Positions 18,573-31,721 of a DNA stretch of 52,017 bases are shown one piece after another. The DNA is from Apilactobacillus apinorum (GTDB taxonomy: Bacteria; Bacillota; Bacilli; Lactobacillales; Lactobacillaceae): positions 691,592 through 743,608 of the forward strand of contig NZ_KQ440396.1 of NCBI RefSeq assembly GCF_001281175.1, written 5' to 3'. A program made the position numbers and the translations under genes. Position 1 is the stretch's first letter. Each line of letters opens with the position of its first letter. The notes beneath the pieces are model-generated. The model worked only from the letters and a program-made list of their open reading frames with translations, was not told the origin of the DNA and did not search any database.

Positions 18573-21500
18573 TTATTTAACTAATTTCACTAGGTTCTTG
18601 TTTGAACTTACATATTGACCATTGCTTAATTGTAATCTGTAAGTGGTTCCTAGTTTCTTAACCGACTTAACGTTTAAGACTGTGCCCTTCTTGTAAGACT
18701 TAACGAACTTACTTAGCTTAATGTCTTTGTATAAACGAAGTCCTTTTCCAATAACTTTTACCTTACGAACACTGCTTTGGTAGAACAATGGTTTCATGTA
18801 AGATTTTCTAGCTGTGATGTAACCAACCTTCTTATGGTTTAATTCAAAGGTTCCGTTAGTAATTTCCATTACCTTGTAACGTTTGTATCCATTCTTGTTA
18901 GTTACTACGCCAATAATCTTAAACATGTGTGCATTTGGTCGGTTGTACTTCTTGTATCCTTGTACTCGATTCTTCTTGTTAAAGTAAGCCTTTGAGTATC
19001 TGTAAAGCCCCTTCACCAAGTAAATTCGACGGCCAATAGCTTTATCCTTTGCCTTACCAGCATTATTCTTATGAGCATCAATAACATTCTTGTCTGAATT
19101 ATCGGGAACATTACTAATGTAGTTACTTTGGTGATCAGCATTAATTTGTGCTTTACCAGCATTAAAGGCTTTATCGATTTCATCGGATGTAGTTGCAGAA
19201 TCAATTGCTGCTTGTTCCTTTGATTTATCCGCATCTACTTTGGCCTTTTGGGCATCCTTTTCTGCTTGACTTAGTGTTGAATCATTATCAATATCATTTT
19301 TAACTTTTGTTGCTTCTGATTCCAAACTTGGTCTATGGTCAGCATCAATTTGCGCTTTTCCTGCATCATATGCATTCTTAATGCCGTCAGCTGTAGTAGC
19401 GGCATCAATCGCTTTATTAGCAGCTTCCTTATCAGTATCTACTTTCGCTTTTTGCGCATCTTTTTCTGCTTGACTTAATGTTGCATCATTATCGATGTCA
19501 CCCTTAACCTTAGTTGCTTCTGCATCTAAGTTATCTTTGGCTGATTGTTTTTGATCTTCTAGGCTCTTACCAGATGTATGATCTGCATCAATTTTGGCTT
19601 TACCATCGTTAAACGCTTTATTGATGTCATCAGCATTTGTTGCAGAATCAATTACCTTTTGGCCTGAATCTCTATCTGCATCTACTTTCGCTTTTTGTGC
19701 ATCTTTTTCTGCTTGAGTTAAAGTATTATCAGCATCAATTTCACCCTTAACCTTAGTTGCTTCCGCTTCTAAGTTAGGTCTGTGATCTGCATCAATTTGT
19801 GCTTTTCCTGCATCATATGCATTCTTAATGTCATCGGCTGTAGTTGCACTATTAATTGCCTTTTGACCTGAATCTTTATCTGCATCTACTTTAACTTTTT
19901 GAGCGTCCTTTTCTGCTTGACTCAATGTTGAATCATTATCAATATCATTTTTAACTTTTGTTGCTTCTGATTCTAAACTTGGTCTATGATCAACATCAAT
20001 TTGTGCTTTTCCTGCATCATATGCATTCTTAATACCGTCAGCTGTAGTGGCGGCATCAATCGCTTTATTAGCAGATTCCTTATCAGTATCTACTTTGGCT
20101 TTTTGTGCATCTTTTTCTGCTTGAGTTAAGGTTGCATCATTATCGATATCGCCCTTAACCTTAGTTGCTTCCACATCTAAGTTATCTTTAGCTGATTGTT
20201 TTTGATCATCTAGACTCTTACCTGATTGGTGATCTGCATCAATTTTGGCTTTACCATCGTTAAACGCTTTATTGATGTCATCAGCAGTTGTTGCAGAATC
20301 AATTACCTTTTGGCCTGAATCTCTATCTGCATCCACTTGAGCTTTTTGTGCATCTTTTTGCTCTTGAGTTAAAGTATTATCAGCATCAATTTCACCTTTA
20401 ACCTTAGTTGCTTCTGATTCTAAGTTAGGTCTATGATCTGCATCAATTTGGGCTTTTCCTGCATCATATGCATTCTTAATGCCGTCAGCTGTAGTGGCGG
20501 CATCAATCGCTTTATTAGCAGATTCCTTATCAGTATCTACTTTAGCTTTTTGCGCATCTTTTTCTGTTTGAGTTAAGGTTGCATCATTATCGATATCGCC
20601 CTTAACCTTAGTTGCTTCCACATCTAAGTTATCTTTAGCTGATTGTTTTTGATCATCTAGGTTCTTACCTGGTTGGTGGTCGGCATCAATCTTTGTTTTA
20701 CCATCGTTAAATGCTTTATTGATACCATCTGCTGTAGTTGCACTATCAATTGCTGATTGTCCTGCTGCTCTATCAGCTTCTACCTTTGCTTTTTGGGCGT
20801 CTTTTTCCGCTTGAATTAATGTATTGTCAGCATCTATTTCACTTTTAACCTTAGTTGCTTCTGATTCTAAGTTAGGTCTATGGTCAGCGTCAATTGCTGC
20901 TTTTCCTGCATTAAAGGACTTGTTGATGTCACTAGCTTTAGTAGCGTTATCAATTGCTGATTGTCCTGCTGCTCTATCAGCTTCTACCTTTGCTTTTTGG
21001 GCGTCTTTTTCCGCTTGACTCAATGTTGAATCATTATCAATGTCATTTTTTACTTTATCAGCCTCTGATGAAAGGCTTGGTCTGTGATCTGCGTCAATCG
21101 CTGCTTTACCAGCATTAAAAGCCCTATCAATATCATCGTCTGTAGTGGCATTGTCAATTGCTAATTGTCCTGCTGCTCTATCAGCTTCTACCTTTGCTTT
21201 TTGGGCGTCTTTTTCCGCTTGACTCAATGTTGAATCATTATCAATGTCATTTTTAACTTTAGCAGCTTCCGAAGCTAAGCTTGGTCTGTGATCTGAATCA
21301 ATTGCTGCTTTTCCTGCGTTATAAGCTTCATTTACACCATCGGCATTGCTTGCATTGTCAATTGATTTGTTCCCAGCATCTCTATCGGCTTCTACTTTCG
21401 CTTTTTGTGAATCTTTTTCAGCATCAGTTAAAGTGTCATCATTATCGATATCACCATTTACCTTTTCTGCCTCAGCATTTAAGTTGTTTTTAGCAACTTG

Positions 21501-24500
21501 CTTTTGAGATTCAAGGCTATTGCCTGGTTTGTGATCAGCATCAATTTTAGCTTTTCCATCGTTAAATGCTTTATTGATATCATCAGCTGTAGCGGCATTG
21601 TCAATTACAGATTGACCGCTTACTTTATCTGCATAAACATTAACTTTTTGAGCATTTTTTTCTGCTTGAGTCAATGTATTGTCCGCATCAATTTCGCCAC
21701 TTACCTTTATAGATTCCGCATCCAAACTAGGTCTGTGGTCAGCATCAATTTTGGCCTTACCTGAATCATATGCGTTCTTTATGTCATCGGCATTAGCTGC
21801 AGCATCAATAGCTTTATTGCCGGCATCTCTATCGGCATCTACTTTTGCTTTTTGCGCATCTTTTGAAGATTGACTTAATGTTGGATCTCCATCAATATCA
21901 TTCTTTATCTTCGATGCTTCATTGTCTAAATTAGATTTAGCGTTTGCTTTTTGTGAATCTATAGGTTGACCTGGGGTATGGTCTGCATCAATCGCTGTTT
22001 TACCTGCAGCATATGCGCTCTTTATACCGTCGGCATTAGTTGCTGCATCGATTGCTTTATTTCCAGCTTCCCTATCAGCGTCTACTTTTGCTTTTTGGGC
22101 TGCTTTTTCTGTTGACAATAAAGTGTTATCGGCATCGATTTCTCTCTTTATCTTGTCTGCTTCGGCATTTAAGTTTGACTTAGCATTTGCTTTTTGGTCA
22201 TCTAAACTTGCACCTGGGGTATGGTCTGCATCAATCGCTGTTTTACCTGCAGCATAAGCACTATTTATCCCGTCGGCATTAGTTGCTGCATCAATTGCAT
22301 TATTGCCAGCTTCCCTATCAGCGTCTACTTTTGCCTTTTGGGCTGCTTTTTCTGTTGACAATAAAGTGTTATCGGCATCGATTTCTCTCTTTATCTTGTC
22401 TGCTTCGGCATTTAAGTTTGACTTATCATTTGCTTTTTGGTCATCTAAACTTGCACCTGGGGTATGGTCTGCATCAATCGCTGTTTTACCTGCATCAAAG
22501 GCTTTATTTACTCCATCAACAGTAGTTTCACCATCGATTACTTTTTGATTTGATACTTTATCTGAATCGACTTTAGTTTTTTGTGAATTTTTTTCTGATT
22601 GAGTTAATGTAGGATCATTTTCGATATCATTTTTTACCTTTGTTGCTTCTTCTTCTAAACTAGGCTTATTTATTTTATATACAACATTCACAGTAATTCC
22701 ATCAGAATCACTAGATACCTCATCCTGTTTTGGCACAGAAGGATGTGATTGATCCAACAAAGTATACCCATTAATATTTGGTGATATAACTTCACCAAAT
22801 GAATTACCTGATGATGCTGTCCATGAATCATAATCTACTTTACCACTGTATTCATTGTATGCAGCAGTTCTGGTGAATGATAAAGTTTGAGTTACAGGTT
22901 GTTGTAATTGATTACCGTTTTCATCAACATAGTTAATAGTTCTAGTAACCGTTTTAGATAAATTATTAACTGCTGTTTTAAATAAATTAGAATCACCAGA
23001 AATATTACTGATAGTGTAATTAGCGGAAGGAACCACTTTAATCATTTTAACAAAAGTTTTATTATCCTTTTGTTGATTAGAATACAATGCCTTAAAATCG
23101 CTGGCACTATACTTTGGACCATTTGGATTATCCAAATCTCCAGTACCAACATCTTGTATATATTCATTATCAGATAATGATTCTACTTTAGGGAAACCAT
23201 AAATATTGGTTCCTAATGTGAAGGAAGCAATTAATGGGTTTAGACCAAACATTTTATTGTTATTTACTGCATTCTTAGTATCCCAATTACTAAAATCATA
23301 ATATCTCCCAACATTATTAACTTTTTGGTAAGTATCGAACATTTCAGTCATATCAATAACATTTGATAGATCCCATTTTGTCATTCCGTTTATGTTTTTA
23401 AGGTTATGATCACCGTAAAACATATAAAAAGCTTTTTTTACCGAAGATACTTTCCAATTAGATATATCATCAACATTATCGAGAGTATCGATATGTTCAA
23501 AAATGAAAGATAAATTAGTTACTTTTGAAACATTCCAGTTAGATAATCCAGATAAATTAGTTATGCTTGTAAAGCTAAAAGCATCCGAAAGATCCGTAAC
23601 ATTTGATACATCCCATCCACTTAATGGACTAAGGTCTTTTACCCCTGAACTATTCGAAAATAACCCGCTCATATCAGTAACATTTGATACATTCCACTTT
23701 GATAGTGGGGTAAGATCCAAACTATCAGACTTCATTGAGAAAGCACTATTTAAAGTAGTAACTTTTGATGTGTTCCAATTTTGTAATGGCTGTAAATCAT
23801 TTACATAAGACTGGAAAAATATCTGCTGCATGTCAGTGACGTTTGATACATCCCATCTACTTAGTCCTCTCAGATTCAAAACTTTTGTTTTTAAATAACC
23901 ATTACCAAAAGTATAGTGAAGGCTTTTAACATTCGATACATTCCACCCACTTAATGCAATAGTGTCTGTTATATTAGTTACATCAAATGCATACTCCAAT
24001 GTATTAACATTTGATACGTTCCATCCACTTAACGGACTAATATCAGATAGGCTAGAATCTTCATAAAAGATACCGTTTAAGTTTGTAACATTTGATACAT
24101 TCCATCCACTTAATGCACTAATATCGGTTAAATTAGGATCACTAAAGAACATCTGTTTTGCAATTGTCATAGAAGAAGTATCAACATTTACGTTGTTTGT
24201 TGACTTAATATCTGAAAGTTTTGGTAAATTAGAAAAAACATATGAAGCATCGCCCGTAATTTGCACAGATCCAGCACTTTGTCCATCAAACAAAATATGT
24301 TGAACGTCTGTTTTTGATAATCCACTCCATCCTTTTATAGCAGGTGAATATATTGTATCAGCTACTGGATTTTGAGAATTAATAACCCCACTATGAATAA
24401 CTAAAGTTCCTGCTTGATATTGATCAGTAGCATTACCATAGAAGTCCCATTTAACGGAACTATTTTGCGGTGATGAAACCGTAGGAGCGTTTCCGTCTCT

Positions 24501-24887
24501 ATTAGATAGAACTGCATCAGATGAACTAATACTATTGTTCCAGCTTTGATCAGAATCACTCGCTGCTGATGAAGCAGTTACACTAGCTGAACTTAAACTA
24601 TTCGAAGCAGTTAAAGAATCTACACTTGCACTAGAAACTTGGGCAGCACTTGAACTTGATGATGAACTAGCACTATTATCACTTGCTGATGATGAACTAA
24701 CAGCTGAAGAACTGGTTTGAGTAGCCACTTGTGTAACAGTATCAGCACTAGCAGTTGTAGTGCTTAACATAATTGATCCACCAAGGATAGACAATGTGGC
24801 AACAGACACTACCACCCATTGTTTCTTTACTTTTTTCAAAATTTTTCGATCACTTGATTTACTATACTGATTTTTATTAAACATCAT
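18573..24887 (-). CDS. Giant repeat-rich surface protein (BspA-type repeats, DUF1542-like repeats)
   Basis: About 2104 residues from ATG 24887 (GAGGGAGAAAAG upstream). The N-terminus FNKNQYSKSSDRKILKKVKKQW followed by a hydrophobic stretch is a KxYKxGKxW-type signal peptide, cut near ASADT. A Ser/Ala-rich stalk follows, then about ten BspA-type (DUF285) units such as LSGWNVSNVTNL, one MucBP-like domain (RTINYVDENGNQL), then 16 repeats ending in IDADH, each carrying K-IDxDxTLxQAEKDAQKAKV (DUF1542-like, helical and highly charged). The C-terminal domain of about 150 basic residues matches that of the convergent LRR gene. No LPXTG is present. A long adhesive fibre held non-covalently is the likely role. 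The frame is uninterrupted throughout. Confidence 0.88.
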   Translation of the reverse strand: MMFNKNQYSKSSDRKILKKVKKQWVVVSVATLSILGGSIMLSTTTASADTVTQVATQTSSSAVSSSSASDNSASSSSSSSAAQVSSASVDSLTASNSLSSASVTASSAASDSDQSWNNSISSSDAVLSNRDGNAPTVSSPQNSSVKWDFYGNATDQYQAGTLVIHSGVINSQNPVADTIYSPAIKGWSGLSKTDVQHILFDGQSAGSVQITGDASYVFSNLPKLSDIKSTNNVNVDTSSMTIAKQMFFSDPNLTDISALSGWNVSNVTNLNGIFYEDSSLSDISPLSGWNVSNVNTLEYAFDVTNITDTIALSGWNVSNVKSLHYTFGNGYLKTKVLNLRGLSRWDVSNVTDMQQIFFQSYVNDLQPLQNWNTSKVTTLNSAFSMKSDSLDLTPLSKWNVSNVTDMSGLFSNSSGVKDLSPLSGWDVSNVTDLSDAFSFTSITNLSGLSNWNVSKVTNLSFIFEHIDTLDNVDDISNWKVSSVKKAFYMFYGDHNLKNINGMTKWDLSNVIDMTEMFDTYQKVNNVGRYYDFSNWDTKNAVNNNKMFGLNPLIASFTLGTNIYGFPKVESLSDNEYIQDVGTGDLDNPNGPKYSASDFKALYSNQQKDNKTFVKMIKVVPSANYTISNISGDSNLFKTAVNNLSKTVTRTINYVDENGNQLQQPVTQTLSFTRTAAYNEYSGKVDYDSWTASSGNSFGEVISPNINGYTLLDQSHPSVPKQDEVSSDSDGITVNVVYKINKPSLEEEATKVKNDIENDPTLTQSEKNSQKTKVDSDKVSNQKVIDGETTVDGVNKAFDAGKTAIDADHTPGASLDDQKANDKSNLNAEADKIKREIDADNTLLSTEKAAQKAKVDADREAGNNAIDAATNADGINSAYAAGKTAIDADHTPGASLDDQKANAKSNLNAEADKIKREIDADNTLLSTEKAAQKAKVDADREAGNKAIDAATNADGIKSAYAAGKTAIDADHTPGQPIDSQKANAKSNLDNEASKIKNDIDGDPTLSQSSKDAQKAKVDADRDAGNKAIDAAANADDIKNAYDSGKAKIDADHRPSLDAESIKVSGEIDADNTLTQAEKNAQKVNVYADKVSGQSVIDNAATADDINKAFNDGKAKIDADHKPGNSLESQKQVAKNNLNAEAEKVNGDIDNDDTLTDAEKDSQKAKVEADRDAGNKSIDNASNADGVNEAYNAGKAAIDSDHRPSLASEAAKVKNDIDNDSTLSQAEKDAQKAKVEADRAAGQLAIDNATTDDDIDRAFNAGKAAIDADHRPSLSSEADKVKNDIDNDSTLSQAEKDAQKAKVEADRAAGQSAIDNATKASDINKSFNAGKAAIDADHRPNLESEATKVKSEIDADNTLIQAEKDAQKAKVEADRAAGQSAIDSATTADGINKAFNDGKTKIDADHQPGKNLDDQKQSAKDNLDVEATKVKGDIDNDATLTQTEKDAQKAKVDTDKESANKAIDAATTADGIKNAYDAGKAQIDADHRPNLESEATKVKGEIDADNTLTQEQKDAQKAQVDADRDSGQKVIDSATTADDINKAFNDGKAKIDADHQSGKSLDDQKQSAKDNLDVEATKVKGDIDNDATLTQAEKDAQKAKVDTDKESANKAIDAATTADGIKNAYDAGKAQIDVDHRPSLESEATKVKNDIDNDSTLSQAEKDAQKVKVDADKDSGQKAINSATTADDIKNAYDAGKAQIDADHRPNLEAEATKVKGEIDADNTLTQAEKDAQKAKVDADRDSGQKVIDSATNADDINKAFNDGKAKIDADHTSGKSLEDQKQSAKDNLDAEATKVKGDIDNDATLSQAEKDAQKAKVDTDKEAANKAIDAATTADGIKNAYDAGKAQIDADHRPSLESEATKVKNDIDNDSTLSQAEKDAQKAKVDADKSKEQAAIDSATTSDEIDKAFNAGKAQINADHQSNYISNVPDNSDKNVIDAHKNNAGKAKDKAIGRRIYLVKGLYRYSKAYFNKKNRVQGYKKYNRPNAHMFKIIGVVTNKNGYKRYKVMEITNGTFELNHKKVGYITARKSYMKPLFYQSSVRKVKVIGKGLRLYKDIKLSKFVKSYKKGTVLNVKSVKKLGTTYRLQLSNGQYVSSNKNLVKLVK
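19125..22665 (-). repeat. Sixteen tandem protein repeats in the giant surface protein
   Basis: Each unit ends in a GKxxIDADH-like motif. Two linker types follow: a short one (RPSLESEATKVK) and a long one (xPGKSLDDQKQSAKDNL then a helix), giving units of about 62-63 and 76-77 residues. Several units are nearly identical in DNA, pointing to recent duplication or gene conversion. Boundaries are approximate. Confidence 0.85.
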
Positions 24888-25237
24888 AATTATCTTTTCT
24901 CCCTCTATAATATTGAGATTACGATTCCTCATTATAATTATGAAGTTTGTGATTTGAACTTAAGTTTTACTAAAATACTTTAAACTTTTACGTAATAAAT
25001 AAATGATAAATATACTTTATGTAACCCAAATTATTTTAATTTACTGATATATAAGTATTGTCCAAATGTATTTTTTATCTTATTTATATATTTTGGACAA
25101 AAAGTTAAACGCTGATTTTTTACTAATTAAACAATATTTTAAAAAGCACTCACAAAAAGTTAGTGTTTTTTATTGCTTTTAATCTCAATACATGAAATAT
25201 TAGATATTATGGTTTTAATAAATTGGAGATGAAAATT
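24888..25237. other. Divergent intergenic region (about 350 bases)
   Basis: AT-rich gap between the giant surface gene and the YczE-like gene. It holds a 9-base-arm inverted repeat (25058-25066 with 25092-25100) and an imperfect hairpin with a T-run at 25141-25173. I found no gene or RNA and could not fix the promoters. Confidence 0.5.
25058..25100. promoter_or_regulatory. Inverted repeat TTGTCCAAA / TTTGGACAA
   Basis: Perfect 9-base arms separated by 25 bases in the divergent region. Centre-to-centre spacing is 34 bases, about three helical turns, so a looping repressor or paired operator is conceivable. No regulator is assigned. Confidence 0.4.
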
Positions 25238-28202: not shown

Positions 28203-28682
28203 TTATTTGTGATATGGGCTACCTTCATTAATCATAAAAGCACGATAGATTTGTTCAGTTAACACTAAACGCATTAATTGGTGCGGTAATGTAAAACGAC
28301 CAAACGAAATTTGTGTATCGGATCTTTTTAGCACTTTTGGCGCTAATCCTAGTGATCCACCAATCACAAAAGTAATATCGGAATGACCGTAGGTTGCTAA
28401 TTGATCGATTTCCTTAGCGAATTCTTCTGATGAACGTTCTTTTCCCAAAATCTCAAGCGCATAAACATATTCCTTATCCGCAATTTTATCTAAGATTTTA
28501 GTTCCTTCTTTATCCATCACATCGTTCATTTCAGACTCACTAAGCGATTCAGGCGCTTTCTCATCTGGAACTTCGATAATCCGAAACTTACAAAAACGTG
28601 ATAAACGCTTACTGTACTCTTCTATTCCGGCTTTAAAATACTTCTCTTTTAATTTTCCGACCACAACAAATTTAATATTCAT
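28203..28682 (-). CDS. rlmH: 23S rRNA pseudouridine1915 N3-methyltransferase
   Basis: RlmH methylates the pseudouridine at 23S position 1915 on assembled ribosomes, using SAM and a knotted SPOUT fold. The 159-residue product has the full-length pattern: [23 protein letters not shown] (in parts), [15 protein letters not shown], FVIGGSLGL and the invariant C-terminus [12 protein letters not shown] start with AAAGGAG. In many Bacilli the gene lies within tens of kilobases of the replication origin, and its 3' end is a known target of SCC-type elements in staphylococci; no such element or att duplication was seen here. Confidence 0.97.
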
Positions 28683-29100
28683 TTGTGAAATCTCCTTTTC
28701 TCATTTTTCGAACCACTATATTTAGTGTCTGTGAGTAATCACAACTACTACTAATATTGCATAAAAATTGTCAAGATTTTTCTTAGTTATCCACATTTGT
28801 GAATATGTCAAAATTAAGTGTGTAACACCTATAAACCATTATAATATCAACGTTTTAATGGTGTCAATTTAGCGTGGAACTTTCTTTTCCACACTTTTAT
28901 CCACAGAGTTATCCACAAGACGTGAATAACTTAAAAAGTGGCACAATTACTTGATAAATCAATAAAAAATCTACATCATCTAGTCATTGAATTTTTTAGT
29001 TATACACCGAATGTATGTTTTTTTCTTTGTGAAAACTTGTGAATGAAAATTTCACAAAGATTATTATACAAAATTTAGATATCGTTCGTAAAATCAAAAT
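28683..29100. other. Non-coding region with DnaA-box cluster (possible origin or DnaA-binding locus)
   Basis: Together with the dyp terminator this is a 457-base gene-free stretch. The DnaA box TTATCCACA occurs exactly at 28787-28795, 28897-28905 and 28909-28917, all on the plus strand, with a one-mismatch box TTTTCCACA at 28885-28893. Weaker two-mismatch sites (for example near 28798 and 28922 on the other strand, and TTATACACC near 29000) surround them. AT-rich sequence follows, then a 10-base-arm inverted repeat (29025-29059). Three perfect copies in 131 bases cannot reasonably be chance. No dnaA or dnaN is adjacent, so this may be a DnaA-titration or regulatory cluster rather than oriC. 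Confidence 0.7.
29025..29059. repeat. Inverted repeat CTTTGTGAAA / TTTCACAAAG
   Basis: Perfect 10-base arms (29025-29034 and 29050-29059) with a 15-base spacer that itself holds TTGTGAA. It lies in the DnaA-box region, far from both flanking starts. A Rex-like or replication-related site is possible. Confidence 0.5.
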
Positions 29101-29133
29101 AAAAAAGCATTGATTTCTAATCAATGCTTTTTT
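29101..29133 (-). terminator. Terminator after DyP peroxidase
   Basis: GCATTGATT pairs with AATCAATGC around three bases, with A- and T-runs outside, a few bases after the stop codon. Confidence 0.88.
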
Positions 29134-29139
29134 GGTTAA

Positions 29140-30090
29140 TTATTTGGCTGGTAATTTGTCTTCAACAATTTGGTCTAAAGTGGTTAATGAAGGAATGAAG
29201 AACATGTTTCCTGTCACTGGATCAGAGAAGTCTAGCAAACGGTCTGATTGACCAAACATGTTTTCTAACATGCGTTTAGTAACGCTCCAGTGTCTGGCAT
29301 ATCCAATGAAATAAGTTCCGGTAGTACCTTCACTAGGATTAGAAAATGGAACGTTCATTCTAACAATTTTATGTTCAATTCCATCATCGTTATCTTGAGA
29401 AGCAACGTTATGAGCATTTTCTAGTTTTTCGTCATCTTCTAATTCCAAATCTGAATACTTTTTACGTCCAATCGCTTTTTCTTGATCCTCAGTCTTTAAT
29501 GCATTCCAAGCATCCATATTATGGATGTATTTTTGAGCAAAGGCATATGAACCATTTTCAAAATCTGGGTCTTCATCCCCAATAATTGCATATGCTGATG
29601 CCTTTTGCACTTCAGGATTTTCAGTACCATCAACGAATCCAATAATGGCGCGACCTTCAAAATATCTGAATCCTTTGGTTTCATCTTGAACAGTCGTAAA
29701 GTCGCGATAGTAATTTCTAATTTGACTTGCTACTTCGTATACCACAGCTTCTGAATTAGCACGAATGTGGATAAATAAATCAGCTGGTGTGGCTGGTGAA
29801 GTATATTTAGGTCCTTTTACTGGTTGGAAGTCTTCTAATTCTTGTGGCTTCTTGTAATCTGCAAACAAGTAATCCCAAGCTGAATTAGCAAAACCAAAAG
29901 ATACTTTTAAGTGTTCTTCTGGGTATCTAATATTCATTGATCGTAAGATTGCTTGTTCTCTCGATACTAGCTCTGCGACCTTTTCACGGTCTTCATCAGG
30001 ATTACTTTTATTAATAGTTAAAGTTGTAAATAATACGTTTTTACCAGCATCTTTGTACACATCTTGTGCATCTGTTGGATCAAATGGCAT
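29140..30090 (-). CDS. DyP-type heme peroxidase
   Basis: 316 residues, no signal peptide, so cytoplasmic. The DyP signature GFVDGTENP (GxxDG, catalytic Asp) is near residue 151, and the proximal heme His is probably that in IEHKIVRMNVPF near 243, followed by TYFIGYARHW. The length and motifs fit the YfeX-like bacterial class, which uses peroxide with a bound heme. ATG start with AGAGGG. It is divergent from a catalase gene 182 bases away. Most lactic acid bacteria cannot make heme, so both enzymes probably depend on heme from the surroundings. Confidence 0.93.
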   Translation of the reverse strand: MPFDPTDAQDVYKDAGKNVLFTTLTINKSNPDEDREKVAELVSREQAILRSMNIRYPEEHLKVSFGFANSAWDYLFADYKKPQELEDFQPVKGPKYTSPATPADLFIHIRANSEAVVYEVASQIRNYYRDFTTVQDETKGFRYFEGRAIIGFVDGTENPEVQKASAYAIIGDEDPDFENGSYAFAQKYIHNMDAWNALKTEDQEKAIGRKKYSDLELEDDEKLENAHNVASQDNDDGIEHKIVRMNVPFSNPSEGTTGTYFIGYARHWSVTKRMLENMFGQSDRLLDFSDPVTGNMFFIPSLTTLDQIVEDKLPAK

Positions 30091-30272
30091 ATTGATACCC
30101 TCTTTCGTAATTTATAATCATTCTAAAATAATAAACAATATTATTATACTCTGAAAATCTAATTAGTTTCAAATCTTTTTTAAAATTTTATTAAATTATA
30201 AACGTCATGTTATGTATTTTACCCAAATGGGTTTAAAATGACCCTGTATTAAACCAAAAGGGGGGAATTACC

Positions 30273-31721
30273 ATGACTGATAAATTAACTACTGATGAAG
30301 GTCAACCATGGGCAGATAATAATCATTCTTTAACTGCCGGAAATCGTGGCCCTGTTTTATTACAAGACTACCAATTAATTGAAAAACTTGCGCACTTTAA
30401 CCGAGAACGAATTCCAGAACGTGTCGTTCACGCTAAAGGTGCTGGTGCCAAGGGTGTGTTCACTTTAACTAGAGATATGAGTGACTACACCAAGGCCGAT
30501 TTATTTAATGGAGAAGGTAAACAAACACCACTAACCATTCGTTTTTCTGAAGTTGCTGGTGAATTAGGTTATCCTGATACCATTAGAGATGTGCGTGGAT
30601 TCGCAATGAAATTCTATACTAATGAAGGAAATTACGACATCGTTGGAAACAACACCCCTATTTTCTTCGTTAACGATCCATTGAAGTTCCCTGATTTCAT
30701 TCATTCGCAAAAAAGAGATCCTGCCACTCATCTTCGTTCAGAAGATATGCAATGGGATTTCTGGGCACATTCTCCAGAATCATTACATCAAGTTACTTAC
30801 TTAATGGGTGATCGTGGTAATCCAGCCAGTTATGTCAACATGAATGGTTATGGTTCTCACACATTTAAATGGGTTAATGCCAAAGGCGAAGCATTCTGGG
30901 TTAAATATCACTTTATCTCAGAACAAGGAGTCAAGAATATGACTGAGGAACAAGCACAAAAAGTTGCTTCAGAAAATACTGACTACCTAATCCAAGACCT
31001 ATATGACAGAATTAAGAACGGTGAATTCCCTAAGTGGAAAGTTTGTGTTCAATTAATTCCATATGATGAAGGATTAAATTACAAATACGATATTTTTGAT
31101 GTTACTAAAACTGTTTCACATAAAGACTATCCACTCCAAGAAATTGGTGAATTCGTATTAAACGAAAATCCAGCTAACTACTTTGATGACGTCGAAGAAG
31201 CTTCATTCTCTCCTGCTAACTTAGTCCCTGGAATCGAACCTTCATTAGATAAATTACTTCAAGGTCGTTTATTCGCATACAAAGATGCTGCTAGATATCG
31301 TTTAGGTGCTAACTATGAACACCTTCCAGTAAACAGTCCTAAGAACGGTGCTCATAACTATGCTCGCGATGGATTCATGGCACAAGGCCAAGATGGCTCT
31401 GTTAACTATGAACCAACCGAAAAAAATAGCCCTAGAGAAGATCCACATGCACATATCCATGCTTATGATGTTTCAGGTCAAGTTGGCAACTACAAAACTT
31501 ATGATTCTGATCCTTACTCACAAGCAGGTGCACTATATAACATCTACTCTGAAGAAGAAAAAATGCGCTTAGTAGATACTATCGCTAGTCGTTTAGGTAG
31601 TATCGAAAGCCACAAAAACAAAGTTCTAGAAACTAGAATGTTCTACAAAGCTGACCATGATTATGGTACTCGAGTTGCTAACGCAATCGGCTTAGATATG
31701 GACGAAATTACTAAAGAATAA
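30273..31721 (+). CDS. katA: Heme catalase
   Basis: 482 residues, a small-subunit clade 3-like monofunctional catalase that splits hydrogen peroxide. The distal His53 is in RIPERVVHAKGAGA, the distal Asn in DIVGNNTPIFFVND, and the proximal heme Tyr in ARYRLGANY near residue 349. Other family blocks are RFSEVAGELGYPDTIRD and MKFYTNEGNYD. The ATG follows AAAGGGGGGAA. It is monocistronic with its own terminator. The heme-binding residues look intact, so activity is expected when heme is supplied. Confidence 0.97.
   Translation: MTDKLTTDEGQPWADNNHSLTAGNRGPVLLQDYQLIEKLAHFNRERIPERVVHAKGAGAKGVFTLTRDMSDYTKADLFNGEGKQTPLTIRFSEVAGELGYPDTIRDVRGFAMKFYTNEGNYDIVGNNTPIFFVNDPLKFPDFIHSQKRDPATHLRSEDMQWDFWAHSPESLHQVTYLMGDRGNPASYVNMNGYGSHTFKWVNAKGEAFWVKYHFISEQGVKNMTEEQAQKVASENTDYLIQDLYDRIKNGEFPKWKVCVQLIPYDEGLNYKYDIFDVTKTVSHKDYPLQEIGEFVLNENPANYFDDVEEASFSPANLVPGIEPSLDKLLQGRLFAYKDAARYRLGANYEHLPVNSPKNGAHNYARDGFMAQGQDGSVNYEPTEKNSPREDPHAHIHAYDVSGQVGNYKTYDSDPYSQAGALYNIYSEEEKMRLVDTIASRLGSIESHKNKVLETRMFYKADHDYGTRVANAIGLDMDEITKE

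Follow-up and report, generated by a model that had tools for sequence, protein, structure and literature searches.

In Bacillus subtilis, according to the parts of Smith and Grossman 2015 drawn on here (PMC4447404), eight chromosomal regions predominate in DnaA binding in vitro at low protein levels, and they coincide with the regions known from in vivo work. Number 8 of these strong DnaA regions lies upstream of yydA and holds 7 sites. The introduction of that paper describes the yyzF-yydD operon as apparently under direct repression by DnaA, and the section of a review used here places yyzF-yydABCD among the directly DnaA-regulated genes (PMC8203912). Removal of six B. subtilis clusters outside oriC leads to early initiation according to passages of two reviews (PMC5295017, PMC13220808), the effect being strong only when all six clusters are gone (PMC5295017); because of this, the contribution of any one cluster to titration may be small. 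Within the literature collection searched, no paper joined yydA with rlmH, or DnaA boxes with rlmH, with orfX or with titration in Lactobacillus, and a published claim of the conservation described below is possible.

The window, meaning the whole stretch of 52,017 nucleotides that was analysed, lies on contig C2 of the Apilactobacillus apinorum genome (1.46 Mb, 9 contigs, 96.6% complete). The best match of the RlmH protein encoded in it was PDB 1TO0, named yydA (E 1.2e-61). Upstream of the gene, in the genomic place of the B. subtilis yydA cluster, four DnaA boxes are grouped in 131 bp, away from the intergenic regions at dnaA, and the site is homologous in place to the yydA cluster. An earlier note on this DNA had reported the boxes in one orientation inside a 457-base gene-free stretch; all four were confirmed at the stated positions on the plus strand, within a gap (28683–29139, 457 bp) bounded by the 5′ side of rlmH and the 3′ end of a peroxidase gene, both on the minus strand. 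The origin-like gene layout described in the same note was not borne out: the right-hand neighbour runs leftward, the gap is not divergent and the site is followed on the right by genes of both strands.

Table 1. Features in and around the gap upstream of rlmH (window coordinates)
Feature	Position	Strand	Remarks
rlmH, 23S rRNA methyltransferase H (SPOUT family), B. subtilis YydA homologue	28203–28682	-	
Ribosome-binding region GGAGATTTCACAA ahead of rlmH ATG	28683–28695	-	
Second TTGACA	28769–28774	-	12 bp past box 28787
DnaA box TTATCCACA, proximal	28787–28795	+	exact match; downstream of perfect promoter-like site
rlmH promoter candidate TTGACA-N18-TATAAT	28838–28867	-	12/12 consensus positions; between three-box array and box 28787
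DnaA box TTTTCCACA	28885–28893	+	in 12-bp-spaced array
DnaA box TTATCCACA	28897–28905	+	exact match; in 12-bp-spaced array
DnaA box TTATCCACA	28909–28917	+	exact match; in 12-bp-spaced array
Terminator-like hairpin	29100–29134		
DyP-type peroxidase gene	29140–30090	-	

Read toward rlmH, the gap presents three boxes in 12-bp steps, the promoter candidate, box 28787, the second TTGACA, the ribosome-binding region and then the gene itself. Boxes flank the candidate promoter, which is assigned from its consensus match only; promoter-like sites numbered 6 as compared with 3.5 in shuffles. The ribosome-binding sequence ATTTCACAAATG was present in 14 of the 15 genus loci, and the remaining locus carries one additional A. 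An exact box was also observed at 29766–29774 on the minus strand, within the peroxidase gene and ~1.1 kb upstream of rlmH, and 8/15 genus loci have an exact box at a similar distance.

A separate feature was observed in the leader, where the rlmH ribosome-binding site has a complement (29058–29050 with 28695–28684, minus strand). Perfect complements of at least 9 bases were present in 15/15 genus loci as compared with 4.7% of shuffled leaders, and outside the genus in 5/117 family loci (1.5% of shuffled leaders); TTTGTGAAA lies 344–378 bp upstream. The window leader folds with its two ends paired (z -3.67), to which the inverted boxes may contribute. RNA control of rlmH is possible if the transcript starts near 29056. 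Among the neighbouring genes, the DyP-type peroxidase gene and a catalase gene stand side by side (29140–31721) adjoining rlmH, where 89/153 loci of relatives have an HtrA-like gene, and 18573–24932 encodes a surface-type protein of 2119 aa that carries 14 DUF1542 repeats, a DUF285 domain and a Muc_B2-like domain.

The upstream region was read in 15/16 genus genomes (one was without a match), in all 121 loci of the family search together with one family genome from the order search, in 61/70 other order genomes, in 70 of the 88 matched genomes from the class beyond the order and in 28 of the 47 matched genomes from the phylum beyond the class. The genus, family, order and class searches supplied 263 loci, and rlmH was located in every one of them; these loci are related to one another and their counts represent non-independent events. 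The comparison of the rlmH upstream region in related species, which the earlier note had proposed, found the boxes conserved. In the 500 bp ahead of rlmH, at least two exact boxes were present in 15/15 genus loci (the window's own included), 83/117 in the rest of the family, 36/61 in the order and 25/70 in the class, with fewer than two in 34/117, 25/61 and 45/70 respectively. None of the 28 phylum loci outside the class had two or more boxes, exact or relaxed, within 600 bp upstream. The mean number of exact boxes per 500 bp was 3.00, 2.94, 2.05 and 1.16 upstream of rlmH for the genus, the rest of the family, the order and the class, and 0.145, 0.018, 0.042 and 0.011 elsewhere in the same loci.

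When the loci were divided into bins of 250 bp, the two that precede rlmH had densities of 1.52 and 0.75, and the remaining bins had 0 to 0.13. Among loci of 7 kb or more, exact boxes numbered 5.97 per kb in 88 rlmH gaps as compared with 0.34 in 361 other intergenic gaps of similar AT content, and at least two were found in 62/88 and 12/361 of these gaps respectively. For 300 permuted motifs the mean was <0.01 per 500 bp and the highest values were 0.41 to 1.0; the high-scoring motifs are taken to overlap a real box plus its neighbours.

Alignment within the genus indicated that boxes are mostly kept while the spacers diverge. Within 600 bp upstream of rlmH, 476 boxes were oriented against the rlmH strand and 139 along it. 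Of 190 same-strand pairs within 60 bp, 114 were spaced 10–13 bp apart, 62 of them by exactly 12. A box followed by N11..14-TTGACA was found in 12/15 genus loci and in 36/343 loci overall, all Lactobacillaceae (the 80 named loci in this total overlap the 263), and one control hexamer gave no peak at 11–14 bp after the box. A perfect TTGACA-N16..18-TATAAT was present in 2/132 family loci, genus included, and the perfect promoter of the window is thus not general.

The named loci were the best 80 of 579 and overlap the unnamed sets; among these 80 the closest RlmH was that of Apilactobacillus nanyangensis (95% identity), and 59/80 had at least two exact boxes within 600 bp of rlmH, including loci of Lactiplantibacillus plantarum, Bacillus mojavensis, B. 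tequilensis and members of Pediococcus, Limosilactobacillus and Enterococcus. All 7 named Lacticaseibacillus loci (L331, L332, L335, L337, L338, L339 and L343) were devoid of exact boxes in the 600 bp ahead of rlmH, a natural loss from which it follows that rlmH can do without the site. Several families of the class have rlmH near oriC yet carry no boxes. The absences within the class are real and clustered, as in Lacticaseibacillus.

The position of rlmH was compared among 62 few-contig genomes, where several genome lengths were rounded (e.g. G215) and some distances are off by a few kb. The gene was found to the left or to the right of dnaA, at distances from 2 kb to 1.1 Mb, with boxes on both arms, and the cluster was retained in five genomes with rlmH 250–520 kb from dnaA. 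The upstream neighbour, assessed in the 153 of 263 loci with enough upstream sequence, was HtrA-like (trypsin-like plus PDZ domains) in 89 and something else in 64; at least two exact boxes were present in 57/89 and 29/64 respectively. The neighbours fall into 40 groups, and loci with at least two relaxed boxes occur in 20 of these. The proposal that the boxes mark a coordinate near oriC and not a gene is weakened, as they follow rlmH, yet genomes with a distant rlmH carry them less often.

Same-strand pairs within 30 bp (tight pairs) were used to survey clusters genome-wide. Among 29 Lactobacillaceae genomes, 60 tight TTWTCCACA pairs were found, comprising 23 at oriC (11 genomes), 18 at rlmH (13) and 19 elsewhere (9); six of the 29 had none, and the reversed pattern gave 0. 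Among 28 class genomes, 31 exact-box pairs were found, by our own reading 10 at oriC, 11 at rlmH and 10 elsewhere. rlmH and oriC are the places most often marked by tight pairs, though not the sole ones; in the host genome, same-strand tight pairs occur at these two places only. A counterpart of the B. subtilis gcp/ydiF cluster was rejected for Lactobacillaceae, with 0 exact boxes in the flanks of 30 tsaD (gcp) family loci (61 genomes searched), three of which have a single TTTTCCACA. Other box clusters were observed within class Bacilli between an ABC-F-like gene and tsaD (L273 4863–5086), after an ABC-F-like gene (L280 4895–5166) and upstream of a Sua5/YwlC-like gene (L279 4288–5128), and these are reminiscent of the gcp/ydiF and ywlC clusters of B. 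subtilis. A tight pair far from rlmH (L276 5001–5020, L277 5001–5020) is common to G195 and G051, two genomes of the same genus, and lies between dipeptidase-like and ABC-transporter-like genes named by eye.

A chance grouping of boxes in AT-rich DNA would fit the number of matches with at most one mismatch in the window, which is not unusual (22 as compared with 19.2 expected). Exact boxes, counted genome-wide, numbered 35, as compared with 7 matches of the reversed pattern. Under a simple Poisson model, ~0.00017 groups would be expected to hold three exact boxes in a span of 131 bp. In a list of the 96.6%-complete host genome inspected by eye, no other group of at least three TTWTCCACA within 131 bp was present outside oriC; one opposite-strand pair, 12 bp apart, lies in coding sequence at C1:501341–501361. 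Given this estimate, the enrichment over other gaps and the conservation upstream of rlmH across family and order, chance is rejected as vanishingly improbable. The displaced or secondary origin suggested in the earlier note would account for a DnaA-box cluster within AT-rich intergenic DNA but is also rejected, and we regard it as very unlikely. dnaA stands at the start of contig C1 (G000:C1:19–1332), the end of C2 has eight relaxed-form DnaA boxes and a stretch judged by eye to be rpmH-like, and the dnaA-dnaN gap has five relaxed-form boxes and a CTACTACTG run. The oriC beside dnaA therefore looks ordinary in outline and ~97 kb from the rlmH site, provided that the C2 end adjoins the C1 start. 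GC skew was negative in 8/8 bins of 6.5 kb, with no sign switch at the rlmH site or elsewhere in the window, and boxes accompany rlmH at many distances from dnaA. A CTA repeat directly behind a box was not seen by eye at the rlmH site, unlike in the dnaA-dnaN gap. The earlier note had named two findings that would together count against its proposals, a canonical oriC beside dnaA and a lack of conservation of the boxes upstream of rlmH in relatives; the former is what was found, and the latter proved false.

A further alternative is that the boxes only sequester DnaA near oriC, their place before rlmH being historical. The joint effect of the six B. subtilis clusters on initiation timing, within the limits of the cited review passages, is compatible with such a role, as is the position of rlmH at most 160 kb from dnaA in 51/62 genomes. 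At least two relaxed boxes were present in 40/51 of these near genomes and 5/11 far genomes (Fisher p 0.056; Spearman rho -0.25, p 0.046), neither test being corrected for relatedness. In two genomes (G024 and G118; L193, L194) that place rlmH ~1.1 Mb away from dnaA, close to the opposite pole, the gene is without boxes. Against this, the cluster stays with rlmH across changes of arm and neighbour and in the five genomes noted above, box-to-start-codon distances are similar in several genera, and some boxes adjoin TTGACA. That the cluster moves with rlmH argues for a promoter function rather than a mere sink, and the dependence of a strong B. subtilis phenotype on loss of all six clusters (in the part of PMC5295017 used) also counts against sequestration as the whole explanation, which we judge unlikely.

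The likely explanation is that the boxes form a conserved regulatory site for DnaA binding within the rlmH promoter, restraining rlmH and also holding DnaA. Regulation of rlmH, probably repression, would be its best-supported role, with DnaA holding second. Both roles had been raised in the earlier note, and each gains support from the B. subtilis record as far as the cited portions extend: the homologous site (yydA being rlmH) is a strong DnaA-binding region and its operon is apparently DnaA-repressed, while the boxes are conserved at rlmH in relatives. For this organism the boxes, the promoter-like stretch that they enclose and the conservation were observed, and binding, direction of regulation and titration are inferred. 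DnaA would bind the three 12-bp-spaced boxes (28885–28917) cooperatively, together with the proximal box 28787, and so come to lie on both sides of the consensus promoter 28867–28838. Bound DnaA would then restrain, and most likely repress, rlmH transcription depending on the free DnaA level and the state of replication, a direction that is not readable from sequence. Placed early in the replication order, the site may also keep some DnaA off oriC, like the joint B. subtilis clusters outside oriC.

Knowledge of DnaA-box clusters away from oriC comes mainly from B. subtilis, and the rlmH cluster is one that is kept in many Bacilli. The type of cluster is already known from that species; what is new is the depth of its conservation. 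A wider reading, put forward tentatively and with more doubt than belief, is that the control of rlmH by DnaA represents an ancient circuit from replication to the ribosome in class Bacilli and that in much of Lactobacillaceae the rlmH site is the principal high-affinity DnaA-box cluster remaining outside oriC. If true, this would link the initiator to an rRNA methyltransferase, with one promoter both reading and setting free DnaA. Titration and regulation can be separated by experiment with the help of genomes that have few other clusters and of natural losses such as that in Lacticaseibacillus.

Among known systems, E. coli datA and DARS are likewise non-oriC DnaA-binding loci that act on initiation. 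datA differs in its use of IHF and in promoting the hydrolysis of DnaA-ATP (PMC5295017), and B. subtilis is described as being without IHF and without datA/DARS loci (PMC13220808), both as given in the parts of these reviews consulted. The gcp/ydiF, ywlC, ywcI, yqeG/sda and trmE/jag regions of B. subtilis share the grouping of boxes, but the trmE-jag boundary of the host genome (genes named by eye) is without a box. In B. mojavensis, of the B. subtilis group, part of the region upstream of rlmH is filled by a 56-codon ORF holding a box, which is taken as yyzF from the gene order in PMC4447404; no such ORF was noted in the window gap, which instead has the 12-bp-spaced array and a peroxidase gene upstream. 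With the B. subtilis yydA cluster itself, as far as the cited source describes it, the site shares a homologous downstream gene, several boxes before that gene and a position to the left of oriC.
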